From: Puia sp.
GTDB lineage: Bacteria > Bacteroidota > Bacteroidia > Chitinophagales > Chitinophagaceae
NCBI GenBank assembly: GCA_031292515.1
Contig: JARLGZ010000080.1
Span: 62,001 to 126,000 of the forward strand
Length of the DNA stretch: 64,000 nt
Direction: 5' to 3'
Shown piece after piece: positions 2 through 35,880 of this stretch. A program made the translations under genes and the position numbers. Position 1 is the first letter of the stretch. Every line of letters begins with the position of its first letter. The notes beneath the pieces were generated by a model. It saw nothing but the letters and a program-made list of their open reading frames with translations, did not search any database and was not told the origin of the DNA.

Positions 2-1753
2 GTGAACGAGCCCTCTTCCCATCTTCCCAAAAAGACGCTGACCTGGCATTTTAAGTGCGTCAACACCCGCGATGTCGCCTGGGGAGCTTCCCGCTCATTT
101 ATTTGGGATGCCGCGAAGATCGACTTGCCGAGCGGAAAGAAGGCGCTGGCCCAATCCGTCTATCCTGCCGAGAGCGCCGGAAACGGCCTCTGGGGACGGT
201 CTACCGAATTTGTAAAAGGATGCATCGAATTATATTCCCGGGAATGGTATGAATTCACCTACCCGGTGGCCACCAATGTAGCAGGAATCGTCAACGGCAT
301 GGAATATCCCGGGATCGTCTTCTGCTCCGCCCAGAGCGGTAACGGAGGTCTGTGGAACGTCACCAATCATGAATTCGGTCACAACTGGTTCCCCATGATC
401 GTCGGCTCCAACGAAAGAAAATATGCCTGGATGGACGAGGGGTTCAACACATTTATCAACGGCGTGGATACCCGGGTATTCAATCACGGAGAATTCAACG
501 CAAAAGAAGACATGCAGCGCCTCGCAAAACCCTATTTCGGCCCGAACTCGGAACCCATCATGACCATCCCCGACGTGATCAACAGCAGCGCCCTGGGGGT
601 GGCGGCCTATGCGAAGCCGGCTTTGGCCCTCGATCTCCTCAGGAAATACATATTGGGCGAAAAAAGATTTGACCAGGCCTTCCGTGCTTATGTCGACCGC
701 TGGGCCTTTAAACACCCGACGCCCTGGGATTTCTTCCGGACGATGGAGAATGTCGGCGGCGAAGACCTAGGATGGTTCTGGCGTGGATGGATACTCCATA
801 ACTGGAAACTCGATCAATCCGTAAAAGAAGTAAAATACCCAGGCAACGATCCTTCCAGAGGCGCTTTGATAACCGTTGAAAACCTGGAAGAGATGGTGAT
901 GCCTGTCGTCGTAGCCATTCAACAGGAAAACGGGAAAAAGGACACCATCACCCTCCCGGCCGAAATCTGGCAGAAAGGCCCGCATTGGACCTTTGCCTTT
1001 CATTCCGATTCGAAGATTAAGTCCGTCGTTATAGACCCCTTGCACGAATTCCCCGATATCGACCCTTCCAACAATACCTGGACCGGTGAGGCAATGGTGA
1101 AGCCCGTGCCCGCCGGCGTCTCCGCCAATGACGTCATCGAAAACTACCTGAAGAGCATCGGCGGCAAAGACAAGCTGAAGGCTGTCATGGACCTCTCTAC
1201 GGTGTCCTCCGGCGCAGTACAGGGCCAGAAGATCGTGTTTACCCACAAATACAAGAGCCCCGATAAATACCTGCTGGAAGTCAGTCTTCCCGACCTGAAC
1301 ATGGTGGCGGAGAAACTGATCATCAACGGTGACAGCATCCGGCACACCCAGATGGGAAAAGACGCGGGCCCGATCGATCCGAAAATGAAGCAGTTGATGA
1401 AAGAGGATGAAATGCAGTTCCCCGAATTGAATTTCTCGCAGACCCGATATAAGACCGAACTGACAAGCGTAAAAAATATCGATGGCAACGATGCCTACGA
1501 AATGAAGGTGACCTATCCTTCCGGCGACGTCTATACCGTCTATTATGACGTGAAGACGGGCTACCGGATCAGGGAGATCGTCACCAGCCAGGAAGACAAC
1601 AAAACGGCCACCACGGATTACGGAGACTACCGCGAGGTGAGCGGCATCAAATTCCCTTACAGCGTCGTAAAAGAACTTTCCGCTTTCACCTTTACGCTAA
1701 CGCTGCAAAGTGTGGAAGTGAATGCGGGCCTCGGCGATGCGGTGTTCCAGTAG
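2..1753 (+). CDS. M1 family metallopeptidase, C-terminal part (5' truncated by window)
   Basis: Zinc aminopeptidase of the M1 (gluzincin) family. The visible 583 residues carry the exopeptidase-type motif GMEYPG (about 99-104), the zinc motif HEFGH (123-127) and the third ligand in WMDEGFNTF (E146). An M1 C-terminal region follows, then about 200 residues (from roughly 380) resembling an outer-membrane-lipoprotein-sorting-like beta domain. The frame is open to the window edge, so the true start and any signal peptide lie upstream; the GTG at position 2 is only the first possible start codon in view. The TAG stop is also the first base group of a GTGAGTG heptamer array. Probably exported or periplasmic peptide degradation, as in related Bacteroidota proteins (inference). 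Confidence 0.9.
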
Positions 1754-1787
1754 TGAACGGTCAGTGGTGAACGGTGAGTGGTGAGTG
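1753..1787 (+). repeat. Heptamer array at stop codon of M1 peptidase gene
   Basis: Five consecutive 7-base units (GTGAACG, GTCAGTG, GTGAACG, GTGAGTG, GTGAGTG). The first unit starts on the G of the TAG stop codon. It is the same family as the arrays at 1895-1915, 24923, 29829, 29959-30014 and 35860. Confidence 0.85.
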
Positions 1788-1802
1788 GGATGAAGACATT
1801 GT

Positions 1803-1837
1803 AAAAGAGGGGAGCGTTTTCTAAGCTCCCCTCTTTT
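1803..1837. terminator. Bidirectional intrinsic terminator between convergent genes
   Basis: A perfect 13-bp stem (arms 1803-1815 and 1825-1837, AAAAGAGGGGAGC and its complement) with a 9-base loop. The 3' arm ends in T4 and the 5' arm begins with A4, so it can act in both directions. It lies between the convergent M1 peptidase and carboxylate-amine ligase genes, flanked on each side by a heptamer array. Confidence 0.85.
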
Positions 1838-1885
1838 GTTCTCTTTTGTTGTTATATACTACTTATATATATCACCTGGAAAATT

Positions 1886-1917
1886 CTTTTACGATACTCA
1901 CTACTCCCCACTCACTA
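1886..1917 (-). repeat. Heptamer array at stop codon of carboxylate-amine ligase gene
   Basis: Read on the minus strand, the TGA stop of the ligase is followed at once by TAG and three heptamers (GTGAGTG, GGGAGTA, GTGAGTA), then TCGTAAAAG. The 20 bases 1886-1905 (minus) recur exactly at 29839-29858 (plus). Confidence 0.85.
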
Positions 1918-3030
1918 TCACAATCCGTGCAGAAACTGGTCATGTATATAATCCACCACGCTGGTGAGACTGCCGGAGTCGGCGTAGACTTTTAGCTGCC
2001 GGTCGGCGCCTGTGCCCCTTTCGAGCATTTTGGACACGAAGCTGGTGGCGTGACGGCATCCCAGATGATCCACGACATCGTCTACAAAGTCCAGCAATTC
2101 ATACAGGAGCACCCGGGTATTGACTTCTTCCTCTTTGCCGAAATCGATCAGGTGGCCATCGATCCCATACCGGCTGGCCCGCCATTTGTTCTCGTTGATC
2201 AGGGCGCGGGAGTACTGGATATAATTCATGTTCAGGGTCCGCAGCTTATAGATCTTCGCACAGATCGCCTGGAACAGCGCGGCGATGGTCATCGTCTCCT
2301 CGACGGTCATCGGCACATCGCAGATCCGGAATTCTACCGTGTTAAAGAAAGGGTGCACCCGGAGATCCCACCAGATCTTCTTGCCGTTGTCTATGCAGTT
2401 GGTCCTGACCAGCAGTTTTACGAAATTGTCGTACGCTTCGATGCTTTCGAAATACTCCGGGATACCCGTTCGCGGAAATTTATCGAAGACCTTTGTACGA
2501 AACGACTTATAGCCCGTCTGGCGCCCCTCCCAGAATGGTGAATTGGTGCTCAGCGCATAGATATGCGGCAGGAAATACCGGGTGGAATTAGCGATATGAT
2601 TGGCCATTTCCCGGCTTTCCATGCCCACATGGACATGCAGCCCAAAGATCAGGTTGCTGCGGGCGGCTTCCTGCAGTTCGTTTACGATCTCGTTGTAACG
2701 CACATGATCGGTGATCAGCTGGCTCTCCCAATGGCTGAAAGGGTGGGTGCCGGAAGCGCCTACCCAGAGACCGAGTTCGCCCGCTATCTGCGAAATCGTC
2801 TTTCGCAGGACGGACACGTCCTTAAACGCCTCGTCGATGTCGGCACAAATATCCGTGCCTACCTCCACCACAGCCTGGTGCATCTCCGCCTTTACCTTGT
2901 CCTTTATCATCTTCTGCCCTTCGGAAACGATCTTCTGCTCATGGCTTTTCAGCTCACGCGTAGCCGGATCCACGACCATGTATTCCTCTTCGATGCCTAA
3001 CGTGAAGTTCTTGTAATTGATATTCGCCAT
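1918..3030 (-). CDS. YbdK-type carboxylate-amine ligase (GCS2 family)
   Basis: 370 residues, the usual length for YbdK-like members of the glutamate-cysteine ligase family 2. The nucleotide-binding GIEEE motif is at 12-16, and conserved blocks such as GLHVHVGM and WWDLRVHP follow. The family forms amide bonds between a carboxylate and an amine with ATP. The true substrate is unknown, and true glutathione synthesis is not implied. It is the last gene of a minus-strand group with an ATP-grasp ligase and an esterase, 8 bases downstream of a frameshifted Uma2 gene. Two peptide-bond-forming enzymes side by side suggest a dipeptide or modified-amino-acid product (inference). Confidence 0.9.
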   Translation of the reverse strand: MANINYKNFTLGIEEEYMVVDPATRELKSHEQKIVSEGQKMIKDKVKAEMHQAVVEVGTDICADIDEAFKDVSVLRKTISQIAGELGLWVGASGTHPFSHWESQLITDHVRYNEIVNELQEAARSNLIFGLHVHVGMESREMANHIANSTRYFLPHIYALSTNSPFWEGRQTGYKSFRTKVFDKFPRTGIPEYFESIEAYDNFVKLLVRTNCIDNGKKIWWDLRVHPFFNTVEFRICDVPMTVEETMTIAALFQAICAKIYKLRTLNMNYIQYSRALINENKWRASRYGIDGHLIDFGKEEEVNTRVLLYELLDFVDDVVDHLGCRHATSFVSKMLERGTGADRQLKVYADSGSLTSVVDYIHDQFLHGL

Positions 3031-3038
3031 ACAACACT

Positions 3039-3694
3039 TTATTTTTCAAATATTTCATCTACCTGTATATTGAATCCCGGCACGGCCCTGGATTTTAGCA
3101 AGTCGCTGCCCGCATACATCTTCGCGCCACCAAATCTCCCCACGACCTCTCCCGGCCCCCGTTCCCCCTGCCTGTTCGTCTCCGTTTCCAACAGGAAAAC
3201 CACCAGGTTCTCCTCGACGGGGTTGACGACCCAGTATTCCCGCACGCCGGCCTCCTCATACAATTCGAACTTCAGCCGCACTTCCTTTTGTGAATTGCCC
3301 GGTGAAAGGATCTCGATGACCAGGTCCGGCGCCCCGCATACCCCGCGATCGTCGATTTTCGTGGGGTCGCAGACGACGCAGACATCGGGCTGTACGACGT
3401 GGTGATCTCGTCATCCCTTTTGCGGTTTTTTACCGGCAGCCTGATATCGTAGGGCGCGACAAATACCCGGCAAACCTGTCCTTTCAGATGATTATACAAC
3501 TCATTGAATAATCTCCCTCCAACCACCTGGTGCGCCGTATTGGGCACTCCCATCTTGAAGATCTTTCCCCGGAAAAGCTCCAGCCTTTCCTCGAATTTCC
3601 ACCGCATATAATCGGCATAGGTATAGACGAGCGAAGGGTCGGGTTCTTCCACCGTCTGGTAACTGTCATCGTCGACATTGTAAATGGTAAGCAT
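3039..3694 (-). pseudogene. Uma2 family endonuclease-like gene, single-base frameshift
   Basis: Two overlapping reading frames together make one normal Uma2 (PF05685) protein of about 215 residues. The N-terminal half (MLTIYNVDDDS... to DDEITT) is in one frame. The continuation VVQPDVCVVCDPTKIDD...DLVIEILSP and the C-terminal YWVVNPVEE are in another. The frame changes at about 3399-3402, where restoring one G in ACCACGTCGTA gives TTVVQPDV. Uma2 proteins have a PD-(D/E)XK-like fold, are usually present in many copies and have no settled role. An intact paralogue lies at 19163-19768. It could be a sequencing error or a real pseudogene. It interrupts the amidoligase cluster. Confidence 0.8.
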
Positions 3695-3785
3695 ATAGGA
3701 TTGTTTTTAAGGTTTAAAAGTATAAATAAAGCTTTCTCCGGTACCCCGACCGACCGCCTCCCTTTCCCGGGTCAACAGCTCCCGG

Positions 3786-4748
3786 TCAGACCAACGGCAC
3801 ATGTTGACTGCTGCGTCTGATGTATTCTCCCCAGGTGAGGTTATCGATTCCGTCCCGGTGGACCAGCGCCCGCTCTATCGCGTAGTTGGCAGCCGTCTCG
3901 ACGACCCACTCAAAATTGTCTTCGCCCACGCTGGTCCGCTCCGCATCCGGAGCCGGGTTGCAAAAATCGATCGCATAGGGTATGCCGTCCCGGACGGCCA
4001 GCTCCACGGTATTGAAGTCATAACCGAGATACCGGTTGATCCGGATGACGATCTCCTCCATCTGTCGAAGCCTCTCCGCGGAAGGATTGAAATCGTGGGT
4101 ATACCGGAGATGGTGCGGGTTGCGCGGCTCATACCCCATGATGCGGACATACTTGCCGCCGATACAATAACAGCGGTAATATTCTTCAAAGACGATCTCT
4201 TCCTGCAGCAGCATGACGAGTTGCCCGGTCTCGGAATGTTTCTGATAGAACTCCTCCGGGGAATGCAGCTTATAAACATGTTTCCATCCTCCCCCGGCAA
4301 AAGGTTTCATATAAGCCGGGAATCCCGTATAGCTGAAGATACTTTCCCAATCCAGCGGGAAAACCAGGTTGGAGAAGGACTGATCGCTTGTATCCGGCGG
4401 TAGCTCCCGGGATGGCAGGATGACGGTCTTCGGAACCGGGACTCCGGTAAGCGTGGCGAGACAATTATTGAAGAACTTCTCGTCCGCGCTCCACCAGAAC
4501 GGGTTGTTGATGACCGCCGCATCGCAGAGCGCGGCGTTCTTCAGGTAGGCCCGATAGAAGGGCACATCGTGCGATATCCGGTCTACGATGACGGCATAGC
4601 CGGAAGACACCCCTTGCATCACCTTGTCTATGCGCACGGGCTCGGCTACAATCCCCTGCACGTTCTTGCTGTTGATACGTTCGATGAACGCCATGGGGAA
4701 ACTTCTCTCCTGACCGAACAGGATGCCTATTTTTTTATTTCCGTTCAT
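3786..4748 (-). CDS. ATP-grasp domain ligase (RimK-like)
   Basis: 320 residues. After an N-terminal Rossmann-like region (KKIGILFGQE) comes an ATP-grasp fold: the nucleotide-binding AYMKPFAGGGWKHVYK (145-160), acidic residues near LQEEIVFEEY (181-190), and the magnesium/ATP motif VELAVRDGIPYAIDFCNPAPD (about 248-268). These enzymes join a carboxylate, through an acylphosphate, to an amine or thiol. It sits between an esterase and a GCS2 amidoligase on the same strand, an association reported for peptide-type metabolite clusters in Bacteroidota. No signal peptide, so cytoplasmic. The substrate cannot be read from sequence. Confidence 0.88.
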   Translation of the reverse strand: MNGNKKIGILFGQERSFPMAFIERINSKNVQGIVAEPVRIDKVMQGVSSGYAVIVDRISHDVPFYRAYLKNAALCDAAVINNPFWWSADEKFFNNCLATLTGVPVPKTVILPSRELPPDTSDQSFSNLVFPLDWESIFSYTGFPAYMKPFAGGGWKHVYKLHSPEEFYQKHSETGQLVMLLQEEIVFEEYYRCYCIGGKYVRIMGYEPRNPHHLRYTHDFNPSAERLRQMEEIVIRINRYLGYDFNTVELAVRDGIPYAIDFCNPAPDAERTSVGEDNFEWVVETAANYAIERALVHRDGIDNLTWGEYIRRSSQHVPLV

Positions 4749-4878
4749 AAATTCTTTTTTCTTTTTCGTGCGTCGAAAATCGGGTGTGCGACCGGCATCC
4801 GCATCCGCGCGTGTGACCGGAATCTGTCAGCGAAACCGCAAAAAACAAATAGCCGCTATAAACAAAGGACACCATCCT

Positions 4879-5586: not shown

Positions 5587-5590
5587 ATTT

Positions 5591-5622
5591 CAAATTTATT
5601 TTTAAAACAACACAAAAACAAA
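5591..5622 (-). promoter_or_regulatory. Bacteroidota-type promoter for esterase/ligase cluster
   Basis: On the minus strand TTTG (5619-5622) and TAAATTTG (5591-5598) are 20 bases apart, an exact fit to TTTG-N19/20-TAnnTTTG. The start codon at 5586 follows within 5 bases, so the leader would be very short or absent. Confidence 0.65.
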
Positions 5623-5627
5623 TTGAT

Positions 5628-24921: not shown

Positions 24922-24922
24922 A

Positions 24923-24999
24923 GTGAGTAGTCAGTAGTGAATAGTGAGTGGTGAGTGGTCGGTAATGAGTGGTGAATAGAGAATAGTGAGTGGTGAGGA
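24923..24999 (+). repeat. Heptamer array downstream of M14 gene (11 units)
   Basis: Eleven consecutive 7-base units without a phase break, related to GTGAGTG/GTGAATA/GTCAGTA, starting one base after the TGA stop codon. This is the longest copy of the stop-codon-linked array family. Confidence 0.9.
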
Positions 25000-25050
25000 A
25001 GAGGACCGGATGATAAGTAAAACAAAGCGGCCGAATGGAGCGGGTGACCA

Positions 25051-25177
25051 GGAATAAGGAATAAGGAACAAAGAACAAAGGAACAAAGAGTAAAGGAACA
25101 AAGAACAAAGAGCAAAAGAACAAAGGCACAAAAGAATAAAGAGATAGAGAATAAGAAGCAAAGAACAAGAAGTAACA
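25051..25177 (+). repeat. GAACAAA-type array upstream of PIG-L gene
   Basis: About 17 units of 7-8 bases (GGAATAA, AGAACAA, AGGAACAA, AGAGTAA and variants) with almost no C outside the AACAA core. The array ends about 11 bases before the ATG at 25189. Confidence 0.85.
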
Positions 25178-25188: not shown

Positions 25189-27687
25189 ATGAGAAAATCA
25201 ACGAATTTATCGGGAATGTTTGCCTGGCTGTTTGGCGCTTGCGTGCTGGCAGGAGCATTCCGGGCGGGTGCCCAGACGCCGGAGACCGTCGGTTCCGGGG
25301 AACTCTTTCTGCGGCTCAATAAATTGAATGTCTTGGGCTCCGTATTATATGTCGCCGCACACCCGGATGACGAGAATTCCCGGCTGATCGCATACATGGC
25401 GAAGGACAGGTTATACAGGACAGGGTATTTGTCGATGACGAGAGGGGATGGGGGACAGAACCTGATCGGCGATGAGCAGGGGGTCGAGCTGGGATTGATA
25501 CGTACCCAGGAGATGCTGGCGGCACGGAGGGTCGACGGCGCTGAGCAGTTTTTTACCCGCGCATTCGACTTTGGGTTCTCCAAATCGACCCAAGAGGCGT
25601 TGAAGACCTGGAATCGGGAGAAAATACTGAGCGACGTGGTATGGGTGATCCGGAAGTTTCAACCGGATGTCATCGTCACCCGCTTTCCCGAAGACAGCAG
25701 GGCCGGGCATGGACATCACTCCGCATCCGCCGTATTGGCCCACGAAGCATTTGCGGCGGCGGCCGACCCCAATCGCTTCCCCGAACAGCTCAAATATGGT
25801 GTGAAACCCTGGCAGGCCAGGCGCCTGTTGTGGAATATATTTAACTATGGCGGAGACAATGCGCCCGGCGGCGACCAGATGAAAATCGACGTCGGCGGAT
25901 ACAATCCCATCCTGGGCAAAAGTTACGGAGAGATCGCCGCCGCAAGTCGTACCAATCATAAGAGCCAGGGTGCGGCGCTGACGCCTGCCCGGGGGCAGTC
26001 ATGGGAATTTTTTGACCAGGTCGCGGGGGAGACGGCTCATAGCGACCCGATGGAGAATATACAAACGACCTGGAGCCGTGTAGAAGGCGGAGCAGGGATC
26101 CAGGCCATGATTGACAAGCTCATCCGGGAGTATTCGCTGGCCAACCCTGAAAAATCGGTTCCCGGGCTGGTGAATTTGTACACAGCCATCGGACGGCTGA
26201 AGGAGGGGTACTGGAAGACACAGAAATTGAAGGAAGTTCAGCAGTTGATCGAAATGTGCAGCGGTCTCTGGCTGGAAGCTTCCGTCCACAGCGGATATAT
26301 AGCGCAGGGAGACCGTCTGCCGGTCAATTTTGTGATAAACAACCGGCTGAATGCGAAGATCGCGGTCGATGAGATCATCATCAACGGGTACGACACTTTG
26401 TACCGGCAGGAGCTTCAGGCAAATAGAAACTACTCCTTTTCTTATGACCTGCTTGTCTCCGCTGACAAGCCTGTGACCCAGCCATACTGGCTTGCGGCGG
26501 AAATGTCCCAGGGCTCTTATAATGTAAAAGACCAGACCCTGATCGGAGACCCGCAGAGCGGACCTGCGTATGAGGCGAAATTCAGGCTGACCATCGAAGG
26601 ACGGGACTTCGTATTCACCCGTCCGGTTCAGTATAAGTATACCGATCCGGTGAAGGGGGAATTGTATGAACCCCTGACGGTGCTGCCACCAGTTACCGGA
26701 CAGTTCGATCCCGCCCTCACCCTGTTTACAGATGGAGAAGCCAGGAATTTTGAAGTGCAGACAAAGAGCCAGACCCGCCAACCGGTACAAGCCGCCGTGC
26801 GGATTACGCAGGCGGACGGGATCGACATAAAACAACTGGGTGGCGCAAATACCCCGGTTGTGACGTATGCGGCCACGCCGGCCGGGAAGGGAGTTGAATC
26901 GGGGGTCGTCTACTCCCGGCTCCTCCTGGATAGGGGAGGCAGAACCGATTCGGCGCAGCAACTAAAGACCATTTCATACGATCATATTCCCCGGATCGAT
27001 TATTTCCGTCCGGCCGTCGGGAAATTCGTTACCGCGGATATAAAAATTGCCGGCAAACGGATCGGCTATATCGAAGGGGCCGGCGACAAGCTGCCCCAGG
27101 CCTTGCAGCAAATGGGCTATGAGGTGGTCTTGCTAAGGGAAAAGGACATCACTCCCGGCAGCCTGAGGCAGTACGACGCCATCCTGACGGGTATCCGTGC
27201 CTATGACGTACACGAGTGGTTGCTGGAGAAATATGATGTGCTGATGGAGTATGTGAAAGAAGGTGGAAACCTGGTCGTGCAATACAACCGGAACAGCATC
27301 GGAAATACGGGGACGAAGATCGGGCCCTATCCCTTCGCCGTTTCCAATAGCCGGGTCACGGACGAAACCGCGAAAATCAGGTTTACGCAGCCCGATCATG
27401 CCGTACTGAATTTCCCGAATAAGATCACGGATAGGGACTTCGACGGATGGATACAGGAGAGGGGCATCTACTTTGCGGGCCAGCTCGACCCTGCTTATGA
27501 GACGGTGCTTTCCATGAAGGACCCGGGAGAGAGCGAACAAAAAGGCAGCCTGGTGATAGCCGGATACGGGAAGGGGAAATTTGTATACACGGGTCTTGTG
27601 TTTTTCAGGGAGCTGCCTGCCGGCGTGCCGGGAGCCTATCGGTTGATGGCCAATATCATCGCGCTTAATTATAAGAAAGGATTCTAA
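25189..27687 (+). CDS. Secreted PIG-L family deacetylase with C-terminal amidotransferase-like domain
   Basis: 832 residues with a signal peptide (FAWLFGACVLAGAFRAGA). The PIG-L/LmbE domain carries the zinc/catalytic motif AHPDDEN (57-63), RGDGGQN, and the third ligand in AGHGHHSAS. The family removes acetyl groups from N-acetylglucosamine-type substrates. A long middle region of beta structure follows. The last 200 residues (IGYIEGAGDKLPQALQQMGYEV, YDAILTGIRAYD) resemble a class I glutamine amidotransferase/ThuA-like fold. Downstream are two tiny membrane proteins and a sodium symporter on the same strand. An exported deacetylase feeding a transporter is a reasonable reading (inference). Confidence 0.9.
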   Translation: MRKSTNLSGMFAWLFGACVLAGAFRAGAQTPETVGSGELFLRLNKLNVLGSVLYVAAHPDDENSRLIAYMAKDRLYRTGYLSMTRGDGGQNLIGDEQGVELGLIRTQEMLAARRVDGAEQFFTRAFDFGFSKSTQEALKTWNREKILSDVVWVIRKFQPDVIVTRFPEDSRAGHGHHSASAVLAHEAFAAAADPNRFPEQLKYGVKPWQARRLLWNIFNYGGDNAPGGDQMKIDVGGYNPILGKSYGEIAAASRTNHKSQGAALTPARGQSWEFFDQVAGETAHSDPMENIQTTWSRVEGGAGIQAMIDKLIREYSLANPEKSVPGLVNLYTAIGRLKEGYWKTQKLKEVQQLIEMCSGLWLEASVHSGYIAQGDRLPVNFVINNRLNAKIAVDEIIINGYDTLYRQELQANRNYSFSYDLLVSADKPVTQPYWLAAEMSQGSYNVKDQTLIGDPQSGPAYEAKFRLTIEGRDFVFTRPVQYKYTDPVKGELYEPLTVLPPVTGQFDPALTLFTDGEARNFEVQTKSQTRQPVQAAVRITQADGIDIKQLGGANTPVVTYAATPAGKGVESGVVYSRLLLDRGGRTDSAQQLKTISYDHIPRIDYFRPAVGKFVTADIKIAGKRIGYIEGAGDKLPQALQQMGYEVVLLREKDITPGSLRQYDAILTGIRAYDVHEWLLEKYDVLMEYVKEGGNLVVQYNRNSIGNTGTKIGPYPFAVSNSRVTDETAKIRFTQPDHAVLNFPNKITDRDFDGWIQERGIYFAGQLDPAYETVLSMKDPGESEQKGSLVIAGYGKGKFVYTGLVFFRELPAGVPGAYRLMANIIALNYKKGF

Positions 27688-27707: not shown

Positions 27708-27775
27708 CCCGAGCCGAAGGCGCTATCGAGCGATAGTGAAGATAGCGAACGAGAAGAAGCGAGGGACGAAGCTTC
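27708..27775. repeat. Palindrome-rich intergenic segment
   Basis: Nested short inverted repeats: CGCTATC (27721-27727) with GATAGCG (27741-27747), CTATCG with CGATAG at 27723-27736, and GAAGCTTC further on. It is not a clear terminator because no T-run follows. It could be a mobile palindromic element or part of the leader of the small genes. Confidence 0.4.
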
Positions 27776-27817
27776 GACGAAGTTCTGCATCTGACCATTA
27801 AAAGACAAACGACAGAA

Positions 27818-28114: not shown

Positions 28115-29829
28115 GCAGGATCGATTGGATGGTACTGATCCTTACCCTGCTGGGTATTATCGCATATGGATTATATAAGAGCCGCACTTCCAAAGATCTC
28201 GACGGGTATTTCCTTTCCAACAGATCGGTGCCTTGGTATATCGTGCTGCTAAGCATCATGGGCACGCAGGCCAGCGCGGTCACTTTTCTTTCCGCGCCGG
28301 GGCAGGCCTATACCGACGGCATGCGTTTCGTACAATATTACTTCGGCCTGCCATTGGCTATGGTCGTGCTTTGCATCAGCTTTGTCCCTGTTTTTCGAAG
28401 ACTGAAGATTTATACCGCCTACGAATACCTCGAAAAGAGGTTCGATCTTAAAACCCGGTTGCTGACCTCGTTTTTATTTTTGGTGCAGCGCGGGCTGTCT
28501 ACCGGTATCAGCATCGCGGCGCCGTCTATCATCCTATCCTCCCTGCTGGGCTGGGACCTGTTCTGGACCAATCTGTTCATGGGAGGTCTGCTGATCATCT
28601 ATACGGTGACCGGCGGCGCCAAAGCGGTAGCCTACACGCAGCAGCTTCAACTGATCGTCATATTCGGCGGGATGTTCCTGGCGGCGTATATGGTCGTCCA
28701 CCTCTTGCCGGAAGGGGTGGGATTTTTAGACGCATTGCGGGTGGGCGGCAAGGCAGGAAAGCTGAACGTGATCACGACGGGTGTTTCGGCACATGGCTTC
28801 GATTGGAACGACCGGTATAATCTACTGAGCGGGATAATCGGCGGGTTTTTCCTGGCCCTGTCTTATTTCGGGACGGACCAATCCCAGGTCGGCAGATACC
28901 TGACGGCCAGATCGCTCGGAGAAAGCCGTCTCGGCCTGCTGATAAATGGCCTGGTAAAGGTGCCTATGCAATTCCTCATCCTGCTCCTCGGGGTGCTGGT
29001 ATTCGCGTTTTATCAATTCAATATGGAACCGGTCTTTTTCAACCAGTCGCAGGTTACAAAATTGGCGGGGTCGAAATACCGGGATTCGCTGGCGACCCTT
29101 CGCCACAACTATGAAGAGACCCAGGCAGGCAAGGTGACAGCGATGAGATGGATGGCTGCGAATGCAGACAGAAAAGGCCAGCCGGACTATGCGGATGCGA
29201 CGAGCCGCATTCAAAACGCGGAAACGCAAAAGACCCAATTCCGGACGACCCTGAAAAGATGGCTGGACGATCGAAAGGTGGGCGGCGATTCGAATGACAC
29301 GAACTATATTTTTCTGCGCTTTGTCGTGGATAATCTTCCCAGGGGATTGATAGGCCTGTTGATAGCCGTCATTTTTTTGGCGGCCTGGGGTTCGATAGCG
29401 GCTGCCCTCAATTCGCTGGCTTCCTGCACCATCGTCGATTTTCACAAACGGTTATCGACCCGGGTGCTTTCCGACAAAACAGAATACCGCTTGTCCAGGT
29501 TGTATACAGTACTATGGGGCCTATTCTGTGTGGTCGTCGCCCAGTTGGCCTATAATATAGGCAATAGCCTGATCGAAGCAGTCAATGTGCTGGGATCCCT
29601 GTTCTACGGAGTGATATTGGGGATCTTCCTGGTAGCTTTCTATCTGAAACGGGTCGGGGGAGGAGCTGTATTCCTGAGCGCGCTGATCATCGAATCACTT
29701 ATCATTACCATTCATATCCTGAATCAGAAAGGAGTCCTGCACCTCAGCTTTTTATGGTTGAACGTCGTCGGGGCCGTAGGGGTATTTTTGTTGAGCGCGG
29801 CATTCCAGGGAACGAGGAAGGTGATATAG
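28111..29829 (+). CDS. Sodium:solute symporter
   Basis: 572 residues from the ATG at 28111 (MSRIDWMVLILTLLGIIAYGLYKSR), chosen because it overlaps the upstream stop by ATGA; the frame is open 81 bases further upstream through the small gene. SSS-family features are GYFLSNRSVPWYIVLLSIMGTQASAVTFLSAPGQAY, YEYLEKRF, TGGAKAVAYTQQLQ, and FGTDQSQVGRYLTA. A hydrophilic loop of about 100 residues (near 310-410) interrupts the membrane segments. About 13 helices are expected in the inner membrane. The substrate may be a sugar or deacetylated amino sugar, given the PIG-L neighbour (inference). Confidence 0.93.
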   Translation: MSRIDWMVLILTLLGIIAYGLYKSRTSKDLDGYFLSNRSVPWYIVLLSIMGTQASAVTFLSAPGQAYTDGMRFVQYYFGLPLAMVVLCISFVPVFRRLKIYTAYEYLEKRFDLKTRLLTSFLFLVQRGLSTGISIAAPSIILSSLLGWDLFWTNLFMGGLLIIYTVTGGAKAVAYTQQLQLIVIFGGMFLAAYMVVHLLPEGVGFLDALRVGGKAGKLNVITTGVSAHGFDWNDRYNLLSGIIGGFFLALSYFGTDQSQVGRYLTARSLGESRLGLLINGLVKVPMQFLILLLGVLVFAFYQFNMEPVFFNQSQVTKLAGSKYRDSLATLRHNYEETQAGKVTAMRWMAANADRKGQPDYADATSRIQNAETQKTQFRTTLKRWLDDRKVGGDSNDTNYIFLRFVVDNLPRGLIGLLIAVIFLAAWGSIAAALNSLASCTIVDFHKRLSTRVLSDKTEYRLSRLYTVLWGLFCVVVAQLAYNIGNSLIEAVNVLGSLFYGVILGIFLVAFYLKRVGGGAVFLSALIIESLIITIHILNQKGVLHLSFLWLNVVGAVGVFLLSAAFQGTRKVI

Positions 29830-29849
29830 TGAGTAGTCAGTAGTGAGTA
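29829..29849 (+). repeat. Heptamer array at stop codon of symporter gene
   Basis: GTGAGTA, GTCAGTA, GTGAGTA start on the G of the TAG stop. The last unit runs into TCGTAAAAG, giving a 20-base identity (29839-29858) with the minus strand of 1886-1905. Confidence 0.9.
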
Positions 29850-29901
29850 TCGTAAAAGAGTTGTCTAAGCAGCGAAAAAATGATTACGTACTAATAGGTA
29901 C

Positions 29902-29943
29902 GAAAAAAAAGAAAGGGGGCTTACAAAAAGCTCCCTTCTTTTT
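29902..29943. terminator. Bidirectional intrinsic terminator between convergent genes
   Basis: A 10-bp stem with one G-T pair (arms 29913-29922 and 29928-29937), a 5-base loop, a CTTTTT tail on the plus strand and an A-rich run (from 29902) that gives a T-run on the minus strand. It is flanked by heptamer arrays pointing toward it from both convergent genes, like the terminator at 1803-1837. Confidence 0.8.
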
Positions 29944-29958
29944 ATGATATCTTCCCCC

Positions 29959-30014
29959 CACTCACTCCTCACCACTCACTCCTGACTACTGACTCCTCAC
30001 CACTCACTCCTCAC
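29959..30014 (-). repeat. Heptamer array at stop codon of DUF2911 gene (8 units)
   Basis: Minus strand: GTGAGGA, GTGAGTG, GTGAGGA, GTCAGTA, GTCAGGA, GTGAGTG, GTGAGGA, GTGAGTG in unbroken phase. The first G is the last base of the TAG stop codon. Confidence 0.9.
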
Positions 30015-30868
30015 TACTTCAATGAGGCGATCAGCTTCTCATTCAGCGTCACATAATCGGGGTTATTTGCCTTTTTAGCCATTTCTATGCCCTTTCGAGC
30101 GGTGGAAACAGCGTCCTGTTTCTTTCCCGCTTTCGCCTGGCATCTGGCTTTCTGGTAGTAGATATAATAAGCGTCGGGATCCTGGTCTATGGCCTTGTTA
30201 AACCAGTCCAGGGCCTTATTCAGGTCTTTGCCGTTATCCAGGTAATACATGGCGGCTGTAAAATAAGGATGATTGTCCTTGTTCATCGCATTGTCGATCT
30301 GGGTCATGATCCGGGTGTCGATATCTTCCCGGATCGGAAGGGTGACCAGGGTCTTGTCCCAGATCAGTTCGAGGTCGCAGCTGTTCCCTGTCAAATTTGC
30401 AAACAGGATCGTGAACGTCTCGACGCTGAAGGGAAGCGGGGTGACGGGGACCTGTACCCGCAAAATATCCTGGTCCTGCCTGTAAACGGCCGAATTGACG
30501 ACATCCAGTTGTTTTGTGATGATCAGGGTCCACTCTCCGGCGCCCGGGATCGTGAGGAGCCCATATTTTCCCGCCGGTATTTTTACCCCATTGATGATGA
30601 CATCGTCTCCAAAATTGAGGGTTGTTGCCGAGTTGGCGCCTGTCCGCCACACTTTGCCGAAAGGAACAAGGTCTCCGAATATCTGCCGGCCTTTGACGCC
30701 GGGTCTCGAATAGGACAATTCGATCGAGGAAAGGCCAAAGTCCTGTCTGACGAATTGCGGGGGCGAGGGGGCCGGCGCCTTTATTTGTTGCGCCTCTGTG
30801 CAAAGGAAAAGGGAAGCGGCGAGAGCAAACAAAGCAAATCGTTTTGTCTGGGATGATAGTGGTTGCAT
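30014..30868 (-). CDS. DUF2911 domain protein with C-terminal TPR
   Basis: 284 residues from the ATG at 30868, which begins a signal peptide (QTKRFALFALAASLFLCTEA); an ATG 30 bases upstream is less likely. The DUF2911 domain has FGLSSIELSYSRPGVKGRQIFGDLVPFGKVWRTGANSATTLNFGDDVIINGVKIPAGKYGL-type blocks (conserved segments only in part quoted: WRTGANSATT, IPAGKYGLLTIP). Two tetratricopeptide-like helices occupy the end (NKAIDQDPDAYYIYYQKARC). It is a periplasmic or outer-membrane-associated protein of unknown role, widespread in Bacteroidota. It does not share the sigma operon's strand gap closely (71 bases from the anti-sigma stop). Confidence 0.87.
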   Translation of the reverse strand: MQPLSSQTKRFALFALAASLFLCTEAQQIKAPAPSPPQFVRQDFGLSSIELSYSRPGVKGRQIFGDLVPFGKVWRTGANSATTLNFGDDVIINGVKIPAGKYGLLTIPGAGEWTLIITKQLDVVNSAVYRQDQDILRVQVPVTPLPFSVETFTILFANLTGNSCDLELIWDKTLVTLPIREDIDTRIMTQIDNAMNKDNHPYFTAAMYYLDNGKDLNKALDWFNKAIDQDPDAYYIYYQKARCQAKAGKKQDAVSTARKGIEMAKKANNPDYVTLNEKLIASLK

Positions 30869-30939
30869 AAATAAATTTTGAGAGCCGAATGTAAGCAATC
30901 CGGCAAAGCCAATGGCCTCGTTGGGATGAATGGTATACG

Positions 30940-32343
30940 CTAGTAAGCGATGATGAGGGTAGTCCTTGCTTTTTTGTCGCCCTGCAGTTTCCAGGCAGGT
31001 CCTCGTTTGATCAGCCCGATGGTTTCCGTGTCATGTGCGGGTGACAAGGACTGCTCGACCCGAAAGGAAGACAGCTTTCCGCTCCTGCTTACGATAAAGG
31101 ATATGATTTCGTTCCCGGTCAATATGGAATCGGATGTGGTGATTTTTTTGCTGGTTTCCAGGTAGCTGTGATAGGCCGACCAGCCACCTGAAGGTTGCGC
31201 CGCTCTTTTACCAGGCGTGTTTTCGCTATCCCCGGTCAGCTTTTTTTCGGCCTCGTCATCGCTCAAAACGGCTGTCGGCTGTTTTCTCCGGAACAGGGAA
31301 TAGCTGTTCCCCGTTATCTGTTTTAAGGCCATGTCGTTTTCGGGTTGGAGCCGGATCTGGTTTCCCGCCATAGCCAGTTTGTCCTGGCCGTCGCTGTTGT
31401 TGCTGAAACGGTGTTTGCTATTGTCGGGACGCATGTTCTGATTATTCCGCAGGACCGTCGAGACCGAAGCATAGCCCGCGGACCGGACCGTGACACCGAC
31501 GATGCTGTCGGAATTGGAAAGACGGAGCCGGAAGGATCCGCTGCTGTCGGTTGTGGCTGCATCCGGCTGATTTTTCAAAGAGATGGATGCAAAAGCGACT
31601 GGTTTGCCGTTCGTGCTTACGACCGTTCCCGCAAAGACATTTTGATCGTCCCCCGATGCCGTATCCTGAATGGCGGGGGTGCTATTCCTCATTTCTACGG
31701 GAGCCTTATTTTTTGCCGGTTTGCCGGCACTAATCCCGTTTTCATCGTTCCAGGTCTTTTTCTCGTTGTTCCGGGTGTCCTTCTGATCGTTCCGGGTGTC
31801 CGCCTTGCTCAGGTATTGCCGCCCGACGGACGCGGGCGGCAATGATGCCGGGACGGCTGCCTGCGCGAAATCTTTGGTCGGCGAGCTGCCCGAAGGAGGC
31901 GGTTCCGGGGCGGCTGAAGAGGGCGCCGGTGCCCCGTTCTCTCCGGGGAGGGGGCGCTTATTCGTCGCAAGGGACTGATTTGTGATCCTGTGGCCGACGA
32001 ATGTAAAATACGAGACGGCGCAGACGCCGGCCAGCAGCGCTACCGAGGCCGCAACCCACCAGGCGCGGCGGAGGGGGATCGAAGGCGGGGATTTACGGGT
32101 TTCGTTTTCGACCCTGTCTTCGATCTTCCTTGCAAGATCCTGCATGTCCCTGCCAAACGCGGTGTCGTCTCGCCGCTGCCTGTCGTTTTTGAAGCCTTCG
32201 AGGGCGTCGCCCAGGAAAGGGTCCTCCAGCGAAGCCTTTTCCAGGTCATGCATTTCCCGGGGCGTTAACTCGCCATTCAGATATTTTTCAATATCCCGGA
32301 TCGTGTAGCCGGTATTTTTGTTTCGGTCAGTCATTTTTGCCAT
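30940..32343 (-). CDS. Putative anti-sigma factor with regulatory-like and TonB C-terminal-like domains
   Basis: 467 residues. The N-terminal 85 residues (TIRDIEKYLNGELTPREMHDLEKASLEDPFLGDALEGF) resemble Bacteroidota anti-sigma factors. A single membrane helix follows (WWVAASVALLAGVCAVSYFTFVG), then a low-complexity region with heptapeptide repeats. Next come a carboxypeptidase-regulatory-like domain (GTVVSTNGKPVAFASISLK) and a C-terminal TonB_C-like module (FIVSRSGKLSSFRVEQSLSP, IKRGPAWKLQG). It starts 14 bases after the ECF sigma gene. Likely an inner-membrane sensor that holds the sigma factor, possibly contacting an outer-membrane receptor through its periplasmic part (inference). Confidence 0.8.
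   Translation of the reverse strand: MAKMTDRNKNTGYTIRDIEKYLNGELTPREMHDLEKASLEDPFLGDALEGFKNDRQRRDDTAFGRDMQDLARKIEDRVENETRKSPPSIPLRRAWWVAASVALLAGVCAVSYFTFVGHRITNQSLATNKRPLPGENGAPAPSSAAPEPPPSGSSPTKDFAQAAVPASLPPASVGRQYLSKADTRNDQKDTRNNEKKTWNDENGISAGKPAKNKAPVEMRNSTPAIQDTASGDDQNVFAGTVVSTNGKPVAFASISLKNQPDAATTDSSGSFRLRLSNSDSIVGVTVRSAGYASVSTVLRNNQNMRPDNSKHRFSNNSDGQDKLAMAGNQIRLQPENDMALKQITGNSYSLFRRKQPTAVLSDDEAEKKLTGDSENTPGKRAAQPSGGWSAYHSYLETSKKITTSDSILTGNEIISFIVSRSGKLSSFRVEQSLSPAHDTETIGLIKRGPAWKLQGDKKARTTLIIAY
31739..31801 (-). repeat. In-frame 21-bp tandem repeat in anti-sigma linker
   Basis: Three 21-base units (31739-31759, 31760-31780, 31781-31801) sharing the core CGTTCCGGGTGTCC. On the minus strand they encode DTRNDQK, DTRNNEK and a diverged TWNDEN copy. 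Confidence 0.85.
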
Positions 32344-32356
32344 GCGGCCGCGATTT

Positions 32357-33028
32357 TCAGGCGCCGGATTTTATTTTTGTGGCCTCCGGTCGGGATTCTC
32401 CTTCCGGGTTTGCGTTTTTTTCCATACAGATCTTTAAATTCCTTCTGCCATTCTGAATAAGGCTCCTGACCTTATTCCAGTCGAGACCGGTGGATGCCTC
32501 AATATCCTTATAGCATTTGTTTTGCAGATAGAACAGGTCGATAGCCAGTTTCTGCTCCCCGGCCAGGGTTTTTATACAATCCTGCAGCTTTTCCAATTGT
32601 CCTTCCTTTTCCATTATCTCATCCAGATGCAGGTTGTCCGTCAATTGCATACGTTCAGGATCAAACTCGCGGGTTTTATGGTTTTTACCCGATCGGAGCA
32701 ACATAAGACAATGATTCTTAGCCAGTGTATAAAGCCAGGGTCTAAAGTGCTCTACAGGGTGTTTTTGCAGTTTCTGTACCAGTTCCTCAAAGATCGCCAG
32801 CACGGAATCTTTCGCGGTTTCGGGTTCTTTCAGGTATTTCAGGCATACGGAATATACGAGATCCATGTATCGCTGGTATAAGAGACCCAGGATCTTCGGA
32901 TCGGAAGACTGTTTATAGCGAGTGACGAGTTCCTCGTCCGCAGCCGGATCATTCGATATGGTTCTTATAAAAGGCAATAATTCTCCGGTACAAAATAGGC
33001 AAAATTCCCGTTTTAAGAACAACGGCAT
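32357..33028 (-). CDS. ECF-type RNA polymerase sigma factor
   Basis: 223 residues. Sigma region 2 is seen in LLYQRYMDLVYSVCLKYLKEPETAKDSVLAIFEELV and FRPWLYTLAKNHCLMLLR. Region 4 is LAGEQKLAIDLFYLQNKCYKDIEASTGLDWNKVRSLIQNGRRNLKI, a helix-turn-helix. The first 20 or so residues before RTISNDPAADEELV are atypical, and the start may be later, but no ATG is near. It forms an operon with the anti-sigma gene. Unlike many Bacteroidota ECF pairs, no SusC/SusD follows directly. Confidence 0.9.
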   Translation of the reverse strand: MPLFLKREFCLFCTGELLPFIRTISNDPAADEELVTRYKQSSDPKILGLLYQRYMDLVYSVCLKYLKEPETAKDSVLAIFEELVQKLQKHPVEHFRPWLYTLAKNHCLMLLRSGKNHKTREFDPERMQLTDNLHLDEIMEKEGQLEKLQDCIKTLAGEQKLAIDLFYLQNKCYKDIEASTGLDWNKVRSLIQNGRRNLKICMEKNANPEGESRPEATKIKSGA

Positions 33029-33346
33029 GCTTATTGATCCGTAAGAAAGAGGGAACCGGTAAGTAGATGTTCAGTGCAGAAACAGGGTCATTGCGTAAAA
33101 CGTTTCAGGTGCGGGTGGGGTCTTGTTGTGGGCCAAATGCAGACATCTGTGGACTGACGGATTACTCGGGTTGTGGACTTTCATACCCGTTTTCCCGTAT
33201 CTTTGCACAAATCGGGTAGGTTGCGAGACCTATCTGTTGAGAATCAAAATATTCCTTACTGACGTATTCTTTGGCTCATAAATTGTTTAACGATGAGGGC
33301 TTGCCTTTTCTTGTAGTTTATTAACAAGTCCCAAAAAGATCAAATT
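33029..33346. other. Intergenic region between sigma factor and glycosyltransferase genes
   Basis: 318 bases between divergent genes. It holds the plus-strand -7 box at 33198 and a leader of about 135 bases before the glycosyltransferase ATG. I see no small gene, terminator or recognisable riboswitch. Confidence 0.6.
33198..33205 (+). promoter_or_regulatory. Promoter -7 element for glycosyltransferase
   Basis: TATCTTTG is an exact TAnnTTTG box. The nearest TTG (33171-33173) is 24 bases upstream, longer than usual. Confidence 0.45.
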
Positions 33347-34303
33347 ATGAGAATTGCCAATGTGCTCTTTGTTCACAAAGATGCGAAACTAGTTGAACGT
33401 CAAATATTCGCGCTGGAGCATCAGGATTTTGATTTTTACCTGCACGTCGACAAAAAAAGTAATTTTCTTGAATTTCAGGGTCTTTCCGAATTGCCAAATA
33501 CACAGTTTGTATCCCGGCGGGCAGTGATGCACTGGGGAGGTTTTGGTTTTATCCGCGCGATCATTCAATCCCTGGAAGACGTCCTGAACAGCGGAAAGCA
33601 GTATGACTTTGTAAACCTGCTTACCGGCCAGGATTACCCCATTAAGAAAGTCAGCTATATATACGATTTTTTCTCCGCCAATATAGGCAAGTCTTTTCTT
33701 ACCTATGAAACGCCTCCTTCTCTTTGGTGGAACCAGTCCATGCAGCGGTTCAGGCAATACCATATGACCGATTACTCGTTTAAGGGCAGGACCCGCATCG
33801 AGCAATTTCTGACAGCTGTATTGCCCCCCCGGAAGTTCCCCCTGCCTTATAAACTATACGGGGGGCCCTGTGCTTCGTACTGGACCATTAGCATGGATGC
33901 AGCAGTGTATCTGTATGAATTTCTTAAAACGACGATGAGCCGCAAACAACGTATGTTTTTCAAGCATACCTGGGGTTCGGATGAATTCCTGATCAGCACG
34001 GTTCTTTTGAACTCTCCTTTTAAAGACTCGATCGTCAACAACAATCAGCGCTACATCGACTGGACCATGGGCGGCGCCCATCCCAAAATAATAACGATGG
34101 CAGATGTTCACAAACTGGAGAGGTCCGGCAGGTTGTTTGCCCGGAAATTCGATTCAAAAATCGATGCCCAGGTACTGGATTACGTAGATACTCACCTTTT
34201 GGGCCGGGACACAGCAGGTTCCCACACAAGATATGCAGCCCAGTTATCCCAAAGTCAGGGCGGGGCCGTTTCCCGCGGGCAAGGGGCCATTATAACCTTA
34301 TAA
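33347..34303 (+). CDS. Core-2/I-branching type glycosyltransferase (GT14-like)
   Basis: 318 residues of the beta-1,6-N-acetylglucosaminyltransferase family (PF02485). Seen are the N-terminal strand IANVLFVHKD, FYLHVDKKS, the family signature FVNLLTGQDYPIK (about 90-102), GGPCASYWTIS, and FFKHTWGSDEFLISTVLLNSPF with the conserved SDE-F-type motif. No membrane segment, so probably a cytoplasmic face enzyme acting on a surface glycan. It is monocistronic, and its last 6 bases overlap the convergent xerD gene. Acceptor unknown. Confidence 0.9.
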   Translation: MRIANVLFVHKDAKLVERQIFALEHQDFDFYLHVDKKSNFLEFQGLSELPNTQFVSRRAVMHWGGFGFIRAIIQSLEDVLNSGKQYDFVNLLTGQDYPIKKVSYIYDFFSANIGKSFLTYETPPSLWWNQSMQRFRQYHMTDYSFKGRTRIEQFLTAVLPPRKFPLPYKLYGGPCASYWTISMDAAVYLYEFLKTTMSRKQRMFFKHTWGSDEFLISTVLLNSPFKDSIVNNNQRYIDWTMGGAHPKIITMADVHKLERSGRLFARKFDSKIDAQVLDYVDTHLLGRDTAGSHTRYAAQLSQSQGGAVSRGQGAIITL

Positions 34304-35233
34304 CTTATTGGCCCGTCGGTTTACTCCTTCTTTATTTTTAAATGCCGGGTGAAAGCGGTGAAGGGTTTCGCGGAGATATTCCCTGTCCAGATGCGTATAG
34401 ATCTCCGTGGTCGTAATGCTTTCATGTCCCAGCATCTCCTGTACCGCACGCAGGTCGGCTCCTCCCTCCACCAGGTGGGTCGCAAATGAATGGCGGAAGG
34501 AGTGGGGTGAAATATGTTTGGTGATACCGGCTTTTTTTACCAGGGCCTGCAGCAGCAGGAAGATCATGACCCGGGTAAGCCTGGCTCCCCGCCGGTTCAG
34601 AAACAGGATGTCTTCGTGCCCCGGTTTGGCGGGAATATGGACGCGGATCTCCCTTTGATAGATGGTGATATATTTGATGGCGGTGCTTCCTATCGGGACC
34701 AGTCTTTCTTTATCTCCCTTCCCGATCACCCGGATAAAGCCCGTGTCAAGGAATAGCCCGGAAATCCTGAGGTTCACCACCTCGCTCACTCTCAGGCCAC
34801 AACTATACAAAGTCTCCAGGATGGCTTTATTGCGTCCCCCTTCGGCCTTACTCAGATCGATACCGGCAATAATGGCCTCGATTTCTTCGATCGAGAGGAC
34901 GTCCGGGAGCGCTCTTTTCAATTTAGGCGCTTCCAGCAGGACCGTAGGATCTCTTGCGGCAATCTGTTCCAGGGTGCAATATTTGTAGAAAGAGCGGATG
35001 CCTGAGAGTATACGTGCCTGCGAGGTGGGCGTCATCCCCAGTTCGTGGATCCACCTGAGAAACTGCTGGAGTTGGCCAAGTTCAATATCGCCGGGCGATT
35101 TTGCGGAAGGAGTCTCTTCCAGGAATTGGGTCAACTTGTCGATGTCCCGCAGATAAGCTTCTACCGAATGGGGGGAGAGGGATTTCTCCAGTTGCAGCCA
35201 TGCCTTGAACCCTTTCTTATAAGACTCCCACAT
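34298..35233 (-). CDS. xerD: Site-specific tyrosine recombinase
   Basis: 311 residues, the usual XerC/XerD length. The N-terminal SAM-like core-binding domain (LEKSLSPHSVEAYLRDIDKL) is followed by the catalytic domain. The full residue set is visible: R148 (CGLRVSEVV), K172 (GKGDKERLVP), H244 and R247 (ISPHSFRHSFATHL), H270 (MLGHESITTT) and Y279 (EIYTHL). It should resolve chromosome dimers at dif with a partner recombinase. XerD is favoured over XerC by overall sequence pattern. No dif-like site was identified in the window. Confidence 0.94.
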   Translation of the reverse strand: MWESYKKGFKAWLQLEKSLSPHSVEAYLRDIDKLTQFLEETPSAKSPGDIELGQLQQFLRWIHELGMTPTSQARILSGIRSFYKYCTLEQIAARDPTVLLEAPKLKRALPDVLSIEEIEAIIAGIDLSKAEGGRNKAILETLYSCGLRVSEVVNLRISGLFLDTGFIRVIGKGDKERLVPIGSTAIKYITIYQREIRVHIPAKPGHEDILFLNRRGARLTRVMIFLLLQALVKKAGITKHISPHSFRHSFATHLVEGGADLRAVQEMLGHESITTTEIYTHLDREYLRETLHRFHPAFKNKEGVNRRANKL

Positions 35234-35354
35234 ACGACAAGTTTAAAGTTTATCCGGCAAATCCGAAAATTTTCTTTGTAATCAGAGCCCCTTTTATCAT
35301 ATTGATGTAGGTTTGTTCCCTATAAGTCATGTATTCATTTTAAGTCAAGCATTC

Positions 35355-35855
35355 ATGCCAACTGTCAATCTAAGATCATTCCGGCAACAGGTCCGCCATA
35401 ACAAGAAGCGGATAAGGACCTTTCTTTCGAAACTGGTGAAGAAGCCCCCCCGCGACCTCGTAGCCATAACCCTTGAAGCAGATAAAAAAGCATGGGAGCA
35501 AACCGATTGCCTTGACTGTGCCAATTGCTGCAAAACCATGTCTCCGACCTATACCGGCAAAGACATCCGGCGCATTTCCGCGCATCTGGGTATGACGCAG
35601 AAAGCTTTCCGCGAGAAATGGCTCTATAAAGACCGGACCGGCGATTGGATGAATGTGAAGCAGCCGTGTCAATTCCTGGACCTGGAAACCAACAAATGCG
35701 ATATCTATTCGGTGCGGCCCCGGGATTGCGCCGGGTTCCCGCATCATACAAAAAAGAAGATCGCGGACTATGTGCATATGTACAAGCAGAACATCGAGTA
35801 TTGCCCGGCCACCTACCGGATGGTGGAACGGATCCGCGAAGAACTGGGGAAATAG
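35355..35855 (+). CDS. YkgJ family cysteine cluster protein
   Basis: 166 residues from the ATG at 35355; the frame runs 42 bases further upstream with an unlikely N-terminus. It contains CLDCANCCK (C52, C55, C58, C59), CQFLD, CDIYSVRPRDCAGFP and a final CPATY, the pattern of the zinc- or iron-binding YkgJ family. Its role is not known; some members are linked to metal-dependent modification. Cytoplasmic. A three-unit heptamer array begins 5 bases past its stop. Confidence 0.9.
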   Translation: MPTVNLRSFRQQVRHNKKRIRTFLSKLVKKPPRDLVAITLEADKKAWEQTDCLDCANCCKTMSPTYTGKDIRRISAHLGMTQKAFREKWLYKDRTGDWMNVKQPCQFLDLETNKCDIYSVRPRDCAGFPHHTKKKIADYVHMYKQNIEYCPATYRMVERIREELGK

Positions 35856-35859
35856 GGTA

Positions 35860-35880
35860 CTGAGTAGTCAGTAGTGAGTA
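35860..35880 (+). repeat. Heptamer array downstream of YkgJ gene
   Basis: CTGAGTA, GTCAGTA, GTGAGTA between the convergent YkgJ and YraN stops. The 17 bases TGAGTAGTCAGTAGTGA recur at 29830. Confidence 0.85.

Follow-up and report, generated by a model that had tools for sequence, protein, structure and literature searches.

Introduction

The closest known system to the repeats described here is that of the G-rich heptamer repeats of Xanthomonas. Rehm et al. (2015) reported units of GGGAATC in Xanthomonas and GGGGA(C/T)T in Nostoc, with transcripts starting or stopping more often at heptamers that form G-quadruplexes (PMC4692102). Here, arrays of a heptamer of the form GTGARYR were analysed that lie at the 3' ends of genes in 64,000 nucleotides of a Puia sp. 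genome (contig JARLGZ010000080.1, positions 62,001 to 126,000; ‘the window’) and elsewhere in that genome. Comparisons with published systems draw on parts of the papers cited. Like the G-rich heptamers, the GTGARYR arrays have a period of 7, are mostly intergenic, occur in many copies and are rare between divergent genes (PMC4692102). They likewise lie on the sense strand, within 50 bp of a stop codon and partly overlapping it, and often form inverted pairs, as GGGAATC does in Xanthomonas. Unlike the G-quadruplex class (GGGANTN or GGGGAYT, tracts of at least three G), the present unit has no three-G tract, and a G-quadruplex as common cause was rejected, GTGAGTA containing no GG. The arrays fail the three-G test of the Xanthomonas class and share its anatomy. 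Unlike the repeats of Rehm et al., they carry and supply stop codons, and relatives suggest that they were gained precisely at native stops. What they add to the Xanthomonas class is the takeover of stops, a gain by comparison with two relatives and a leading-strand bias.

Three other systems resemble the arrays in part. TAACTGA repeats occur in Beggiatoaceae, cyanobacteria and five Bacteroidetes; in the main genome described, most of them lie shortly before start codons (MacGregor, 2015; PMC4679880). In these repeats, too, the sense frames hold stops and the antisense strand is open, and they are scattered over phyla; the unit differs, and only 3 of 98 GTGARYR arrays end within 25 nt before a co-directional start of a strong gene (defined below). 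GTAG-type repetitive extragenic palindromes (REPs), 20-40 bp long and ending in a GTAG foot, often supply a TAG stop to flanking genes (PMC3733652). They share the position mostly downstream of genes, the inverted dimers and the TAG supplied by the element end, whereas single arrays are direct tandem repeats of variable number and contain no palindrome. Units of 7 nt are the commonest long repeat class in most genomes surveyed by Mrazek et al. (2007), for which polymerase slippage was proposed (cited in PMC4679880 and PMC4692102). The heptamer period is shared; the passages of these two papers that cite the survey do not mention stop anchoring. An open-access literature search (titles and beginnings of abstracts, among the matches listed) gave no paper naming GTGAGTR arrays at stops.

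Placement at sense stops

Stop anchoring and sense orientation of the arrays are real, strong and general. Eighty tiles and the window were analysed together, 1.66 Mb or 23% of the genome (7.34 Mb, 285 contigs). Genes were called with our own hexamer-based caller, not a published one, yielding 1,360 genes; those that scored strongly as coding and had 150 codons or more are termed strong genes. The sample contained 98 GTGARYR arrays of 15 to 165 nt. The upstream gene was in sense for 85 and antisense for 13, and 73 of the 98 began between -25 and +15 nt of the upstream sense stop. Random intergenic placement gave a mean of 7.6 (maximum 12, 20 runs), and placement within the same gap a mean of 15 (maximum 23, 50 runs). 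With strong genes only, a sense stop lay within 25 nt of 66 arrays and an opposing stop at the far end of 4; three arrays adjoined a diverging start and three preceded a co-directional start, ending within 25 nt of it. Because stop-rich arrays can draw the ends of open reading frames (ORFs) by chance, this strong-gene count, orthologues and a stop-free heptamer served as controls.

Nine of the 98 arrays were more than half inside a called gene, so that, like bacterial heptanucleotide simple sequence repeats, the arrays are mostly outside coding sequence. Gene ends carried arrays equally in both arrangements (47 of 898 co-directional, 26 of 458 convergent). On contig C148, 27 segments scored at least 14 on the plus strand and one on the minus strand; a base-shuffled copy (one strand) gave one. 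The strict three-unit GTGARYR pattern had 172 matches in the whole genome, many overlapping within one array; its mirror gave 10 and 10 against 108 and 64 matches, a control that is not independent because GTGAGTG is its own mirror. A check for randomness relative to stops and strand had been proposed in the preliminary description of the window; run on 23% of the genome, it found the arrays strongly non-random. Contig C143 opens with an array of 19 units (2-134; 18 GTGAGTA, one GTGAGTG), so long arrays may break assembly and be under-counted.

All six window arrays named in the preliminary description were recovered at their gene ends (Table 1), and Pfam bore out the flanking families (M1 peptidase, GCS2-type ligase, M14 peptidase, sodium:solute symporter, DUF2911 and CxxCxxCC). 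Its account of sense orientation and a start on the stop is correct as anatomy: the TAG is inside the array in three (M1, symporter, DUF2911), and the other three, which it had placed within a few bases, begin at most 1 nt from the stop. Its unbroken runs, in contrast, are not strict. At least two consecutive strict GTGARYR units occur in only two of the six arrays (three units each), and the remaining four mix GTCAGTR and GTGAGGA among their units. Nor does every unit carry TGA or TAG, as had been claimed, since GTCAGTG has no stop in sense.

Cutting the 98 arrays gave 635 units, with GTGAGTG (146), GTGAGTA (117), GTCAGTA (50) and GTCAGTG (36) together making up 349. The unit is better written GTSARTR than GTGARYR. 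Its head-to-tail repetition in variable number is that of heptanucleotide simple sequence repeats. Arrays usually supply the stop of their gene: array-linked genes end in TAG, TGA and TAA in 48, 23 and 6 cases (405, 419 and 536 for all genes), and their final codons are often array sequence themselves.

The same unit and a stop-free unit elsewhere

The strict pattern was present in 12 of 58 genomes searched, this one included, the next highest counts being 25, 13 and 11 matches. Four-fold GTGAGTA occurred in at least 116 stretches of public genome contigs, a scan selected by unit and not by position. With ORFs of at least 200 codons, the 135 arrays of these loci had a sense stop within 25 nt in 56 cases and an opposing stop in 5; 10 had a diverging start and 7 a co-directional one. 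Counted by locus, 45 sense stops stood against 4 opposing stops among 116 loci. The loci with stop-anchored arrays span what we take to be eight phyla. The same four-fold unit was found in 9 stretches of viral contigs; spread by phage is among the readings rejected.

GGGAATC arrays contain no stop codon on either strand. In the order to which a Lysobacterales contig belongs, 23 of 200 genomes had three-fold GGGAATC. A subset of the places listed supplied 66 Lysobacterales loci (L433-L498) with 84 arrays. A stop trinucleotide lay in the 10 nt preceding the array in 39 of the 84. The control counts were 10-16 in four windows further upstream, 14 for opposing-strand stops at the distal end, 22 for sense stops past the array and 12 for antisense stops ahead of it. 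Open frames of 150 codons or more ended at the array start in 18 cases and at the far end in 2. Stop trinucleotides and open frames were used here because gene calls were poor at GGGANTN loci, the caller placing 49 of 105 arrays inside genes in these high-GC genomes. With the gene caller the result was weaker and in the same direction, 10 arrays lying within 25 nt of a sense stop and one of an opposing stop. Unlike GTGARYR arrays, GGGANTN arrays often lie just ahead of an antisense gene's start: a diverging start was upstream of 34, and within 28 nt for 14 of these.

Comparison with relatives

The carboxylate-amine ligase ends within 2 residues of the window protein's end in 27 of 29 relatives' loci; in the other two (L213, L216) the match stops short of the end. 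A window-type array followed the ligase stop in none of these 27, where the sequence past the stop was examined. At this ligase stop, one relative has GATAATG heptamers (L189, genome G027) and another has 10-bp repeats (L188, genome G011).

For all 12 array-linked genes tested, an orthologous end was found in one or both of two relatives (G019 and G011). In ten of the 12 pairs the proteins end within one residue of each other; in the other two the ends are 4-5 residues apart. Short arrays were already present in two (symporter and DUF2911, both in G019) and none was seen in the other ten. Five array gaps were compared with each relative. Their medians were 164 and 159 bp here against 32 and 34 bp in G019 and G011, a median excess of 115 and 123 bp, and the relatives' gaps ranged from 6 to 115 bp. 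Gaps without arrays differed by medians of 25 and 36 bp (8 and 15 gaps, respectively). The preliminary description had suggested comparing orthologous 3' ends; the relatives have the same native stops, mostly without arrays, and shorter gaps. To judge from these comparisons, the arrays look as if they had been gained at native stops with little or no change to the protein.

Growth polarity and replication strand

For the 36 arrays with a length of 42 nt or more, the match to the consensus was 0.970 in the stop-proximal third and 0.924 in the distal third (Wilcoxon p 0.003). Unit identity dropped with separation, from 0.70 for neighbours to about 0.51-0.53 at 8-9 units apart. Purer stop-proximal units and alike neighbours fit local duplication with renewal near the stop.

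The leading strand was marked by third-position GC skew, which is clear on four contigs. Arrays on the leading strand numbered 21 of 22 on C148, 18 of 18 on C28, 3 of 5 on C33 and 3 of 4 on C98, together 45 of 49; of genes, 67% (C148) and 59% (C28) are leading. In the window the skew is weak and both array orientations occur. Arrays are nearly all single on C148 and C28, while many inverted pairs around a core, some with tails, were seen on C137, C209 and the window.

A proposed outgrowth from gene ends

The placement is the same in other phyla and for a stop-free repeat, and the arrays therefore look like DNA outgrowth from gene ends and not like a safety catch. The reading that we prefer, at a probability of roughly 0.5, is that of slippage-grown heptanucleotide arrays that were seeded at the end of a coding sequence, took over its stop and grew into intergenic DNA. 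An array with a unit of about GTSARTR would be seeded at the coding-sequence end, take over the stop codon and extend outwards by local slippage or unequal duplication. The stop would be the first base at which a 7-bp change of length shifts no reading frame. Past it, the nascent RNA may be free of ribosomes, leaving the G-rich, C-poor sense strand exposed as R-loop-prone DNA that slips on replication. The stop content of the unit would be a by-product, thanks to which arrays that encroach on the final codons do no harm. A few arrays would by now form the ends of larger array-hairpin-array cassettes, which are found repeatedly between genes. Among the interpretations in the preliminary description, a termination safeguard is not supported; a 3'-untranslated-region element and a selfish repeat both stand as readings, the latter fitting best.

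Several observations weigh against this outgrowth. Part of the distal wear follows from the way in which arrays were defined, which favours a clean start because the upstream side is bounded by coding sequence, and phase shifts also lower the identities of distant units. No 7-bp periodicity was found in this genome's intergenic DNA outside arrays (0.267 at lag 7, masked). Slippage at gene ends is thus not general and is bound to the GTGARYR unit; general 7-bp slippage in all gaps was rejected on the same result. The leading-strand bias is weak on C137 1-360k (weak skew; 19 to 12), C209 1-60k (intermediate skew) runs against the trend with 2 leading arrays and 4 not, and C33 has the clearest skew and only 3 of 5 arrays leading. 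In 9 of 18 inverted pairs, at least one array has no upstream sense gene. One of ten array-gap comparisons showed no growth (+2 bp), and each gained gap is in part not array. Gain, as opposed to loss, was inferred from two relatives, one of them (G019) 65% complete.

A wider version, possible if on balance unlikely, is a single bacteria-wide phenomenon independent of the heptamer sequence and its stops, in which a process at the end of translation marks the DNA past the stop, where 7-bp repeats are then seeded. On that view stop codons would act as hot spots at which DNA grows, and stop-capturing arrays would be the visible sign. Replication slippage alone hardly accounts for a repeat aligned with the end of translation. 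If seeding were tied to ribosome-free RNA past the stop, arrays would be a genomic trace, open to counting, of encounters between transcription, translation and replication.

A possible 3'-end element in the RNA

A rather unlikely alternative is that arrays act in RNA, where the array alone, the stem of an inverted pair or the flank of a hairpin would end or insulate transcripts or protect the 3' end of the mRNA. Arrays do lie at 3' ends, rarely beside a diverging start (3 of 98), and an inverted array lies within 300 nt of 33 of the 98, forming 18 pairs. Four array-hairpin-array cassettes were identified, and Rehm et al. associated transcript starts and stops with G-quadruplex-forming heptamers (PMC4692102). 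Array RNA folds better than shuffled RNA by a median of 2.95 kcal, but absolute folding is weak (median -0.145 kcal per nt). No link to terminators was apparent in our own strict scan of gaps of at least 60 nt, a terminator-like hairpin occurring within 250 nt past 3 of 70 array ends and 64 of 721 other ends. The equal frequency of arrays at co-directional and convergent ends also argues against such a role, as do the shorter gaps at the same genes in two relatives, mostly without arrays. If arrays are 3'-end elements, they form a large unannotated class. Either way, they shape the stop-codon usage and gap length of their genes and can redefine C-termini in gene calls.

Inverted pairs, tails and cassettes

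It is improbable that arrays are the terminal inverted repeats of short non-autonomous elements, similar to miniature inverted-repeat transposable elements or REPs, that insert at stop codons. Such elements would account for inverted arrays around a core that also occur in co-directional gaps, the second array being at no stop (C137:148933-149028, 178112-178270 and 214594-214669), and GTAG REPs likewise supply TAG stops (PMC3733652). Recurrent tails are a further point in their favour. An array end followed by GATGAAGACRTT had 20 matches in the genome (at most 2 mismatches), and the tail GTGAGTATCGTAAAA had 7 (at most 1 mismatch); reversed controls gave none. Four cassette copies were recognised by reading, with the order array, tail, GC-rich hairpin with T-run, second tail and inverted array, details varying. 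Recurrent cassettes indicate that parts larger than the unit get copied, which we infer to occur most simply by recombination between arrays. Against mobile ends, 65 of the 98 arrays lack an inverted partner within 300 nt, array length varies from 15 to 165 nt, and the same unit is found in many phyla. No IS200/RAYT-type motif was found in the 1.66 Mb (23% of the genome) with our own regular expression.

Reading frame and additional stops

The preliminary description had also raised a translation-termination safeguard, in which readthrough or slippage by ribosomes would be caught by stops in every frame. At first sight the counts favour it. Within seven codons, a second in-frame stop follows 74% of array ends (n = 70) and 26% of other ends (n = 721), and at codon +1 the figures are 43% and 6%; the unit gives such stops by itself. 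When unit order was permuted in 55 arrays of this genome, no retention of in-frame stops beyond unit composition was found (156 observed against a mean of 149.9, standard deviation 6.9; 20.6% of permutations as high). In favour of a safeguard, TAG was kept more often in units without TGA (Fisher p 0.0099; units not independent). The remaining 26% of array ends have no second in-frame stop within seven codons, and Ho and Hurst report no evidence that extra stops are selected for in eubacteria (PMC6764699). Since stop-free GGGAATC arrays show the same anchoring, a safeguard does not explain placement. As the reason for the arrays it is highly improbable; it could be a side benefit.

Other heptamers were compared for their stops. 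Among 25 other period-7 arrays at one stop in public loci, stops were more frequent in sense in 14, equal in 7 and more frequent in antisense in 4, an excess inflated by overlap with the stop itself. A general rule of a heptamer as a double stop plus one base was rejected. Four-fold TRRTRRN had matches in 150 of 392 Bacteroidota genomes, counts that do not discriminate because one-stop units (TGATGGT, TAATGGT) are frequent among the matches listed and the mirror control matches the same arrays. In 30 TRRTRRN loci, 16 sense stops and 5 opposing stops were found among 39 arrays. Rho-dependent termination of antisense transcription on the C-rich antisense strand is not favoured because convergent and co-directional ends carry arrays equally.

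Features of the window

Table 1. Arrays, tails, hairpins and cassettes, in window positions unless a contig is named.
Feature	Position	Strand	Remarks
GTGARYR-type array, 40 nt, 5.7 units, after M1 peptidase	1749..1788	+	includes the gene's TAG stop, 1751-1753
Array-end tail GAGTGGGATGAAGACATT	1783..1800	+	recurs after arrays elsewhere; 20 matches with at most 2 mismatches, reversed control 0
Hairpin then T-run, intrinsic-terminator-like	1806..1840		between two convergent arrays; read from sequence
Second array-end tail GTGAGTATCGTAAAA	1887..1901	-	7 matches with at most 1 mismatch, reversed control 0
Array, 24 nt, 3.4 units, after carboxylate-amine ligase	1895..1918	-	flush with TGA stop
Array, 76 nt, 10.9 units, after M14 peptidase	24922..24997	+	immediately 3' of TGA stop
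Array, 24 nt, 3.4 units, symporter	29826..29849	+	includes TAG stop
Array-end tail GTGAGTATCGTAAAA after symporter array	29843..29857	+	from tail match search
Hairpin (one G-U pair) then T-run	29908..29945		between convergent symporter and DUF2911 arrays; read from sequence
Array, 61 nt, 8.7 units, DUF2911 gene	29958..30018	-	includes TAG stop
Array, 25 nt, 3.6 units, YkgJ-type gene	35857..35881	+	begins 1 nt past TAG stop
Cassette	1749-1918		by reading
Cassette	29826-30018		by reading
Cassette	C209:45740-45930		by reading
Cassette	around C242:39223-39334		by reading

Downstream of the M14 array, a different heptamer block (AGGAATA, then GAACAAA-type units) occupies 25050-25168; its main unit, GAACAAA, contains no stop codons. 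Past a gene ending at 27687, the sequence at 27709-27786 is present only once in the 1.66 Mb analysed here and has nine further matches in G019, and it is a dispersed repeat of that relative.

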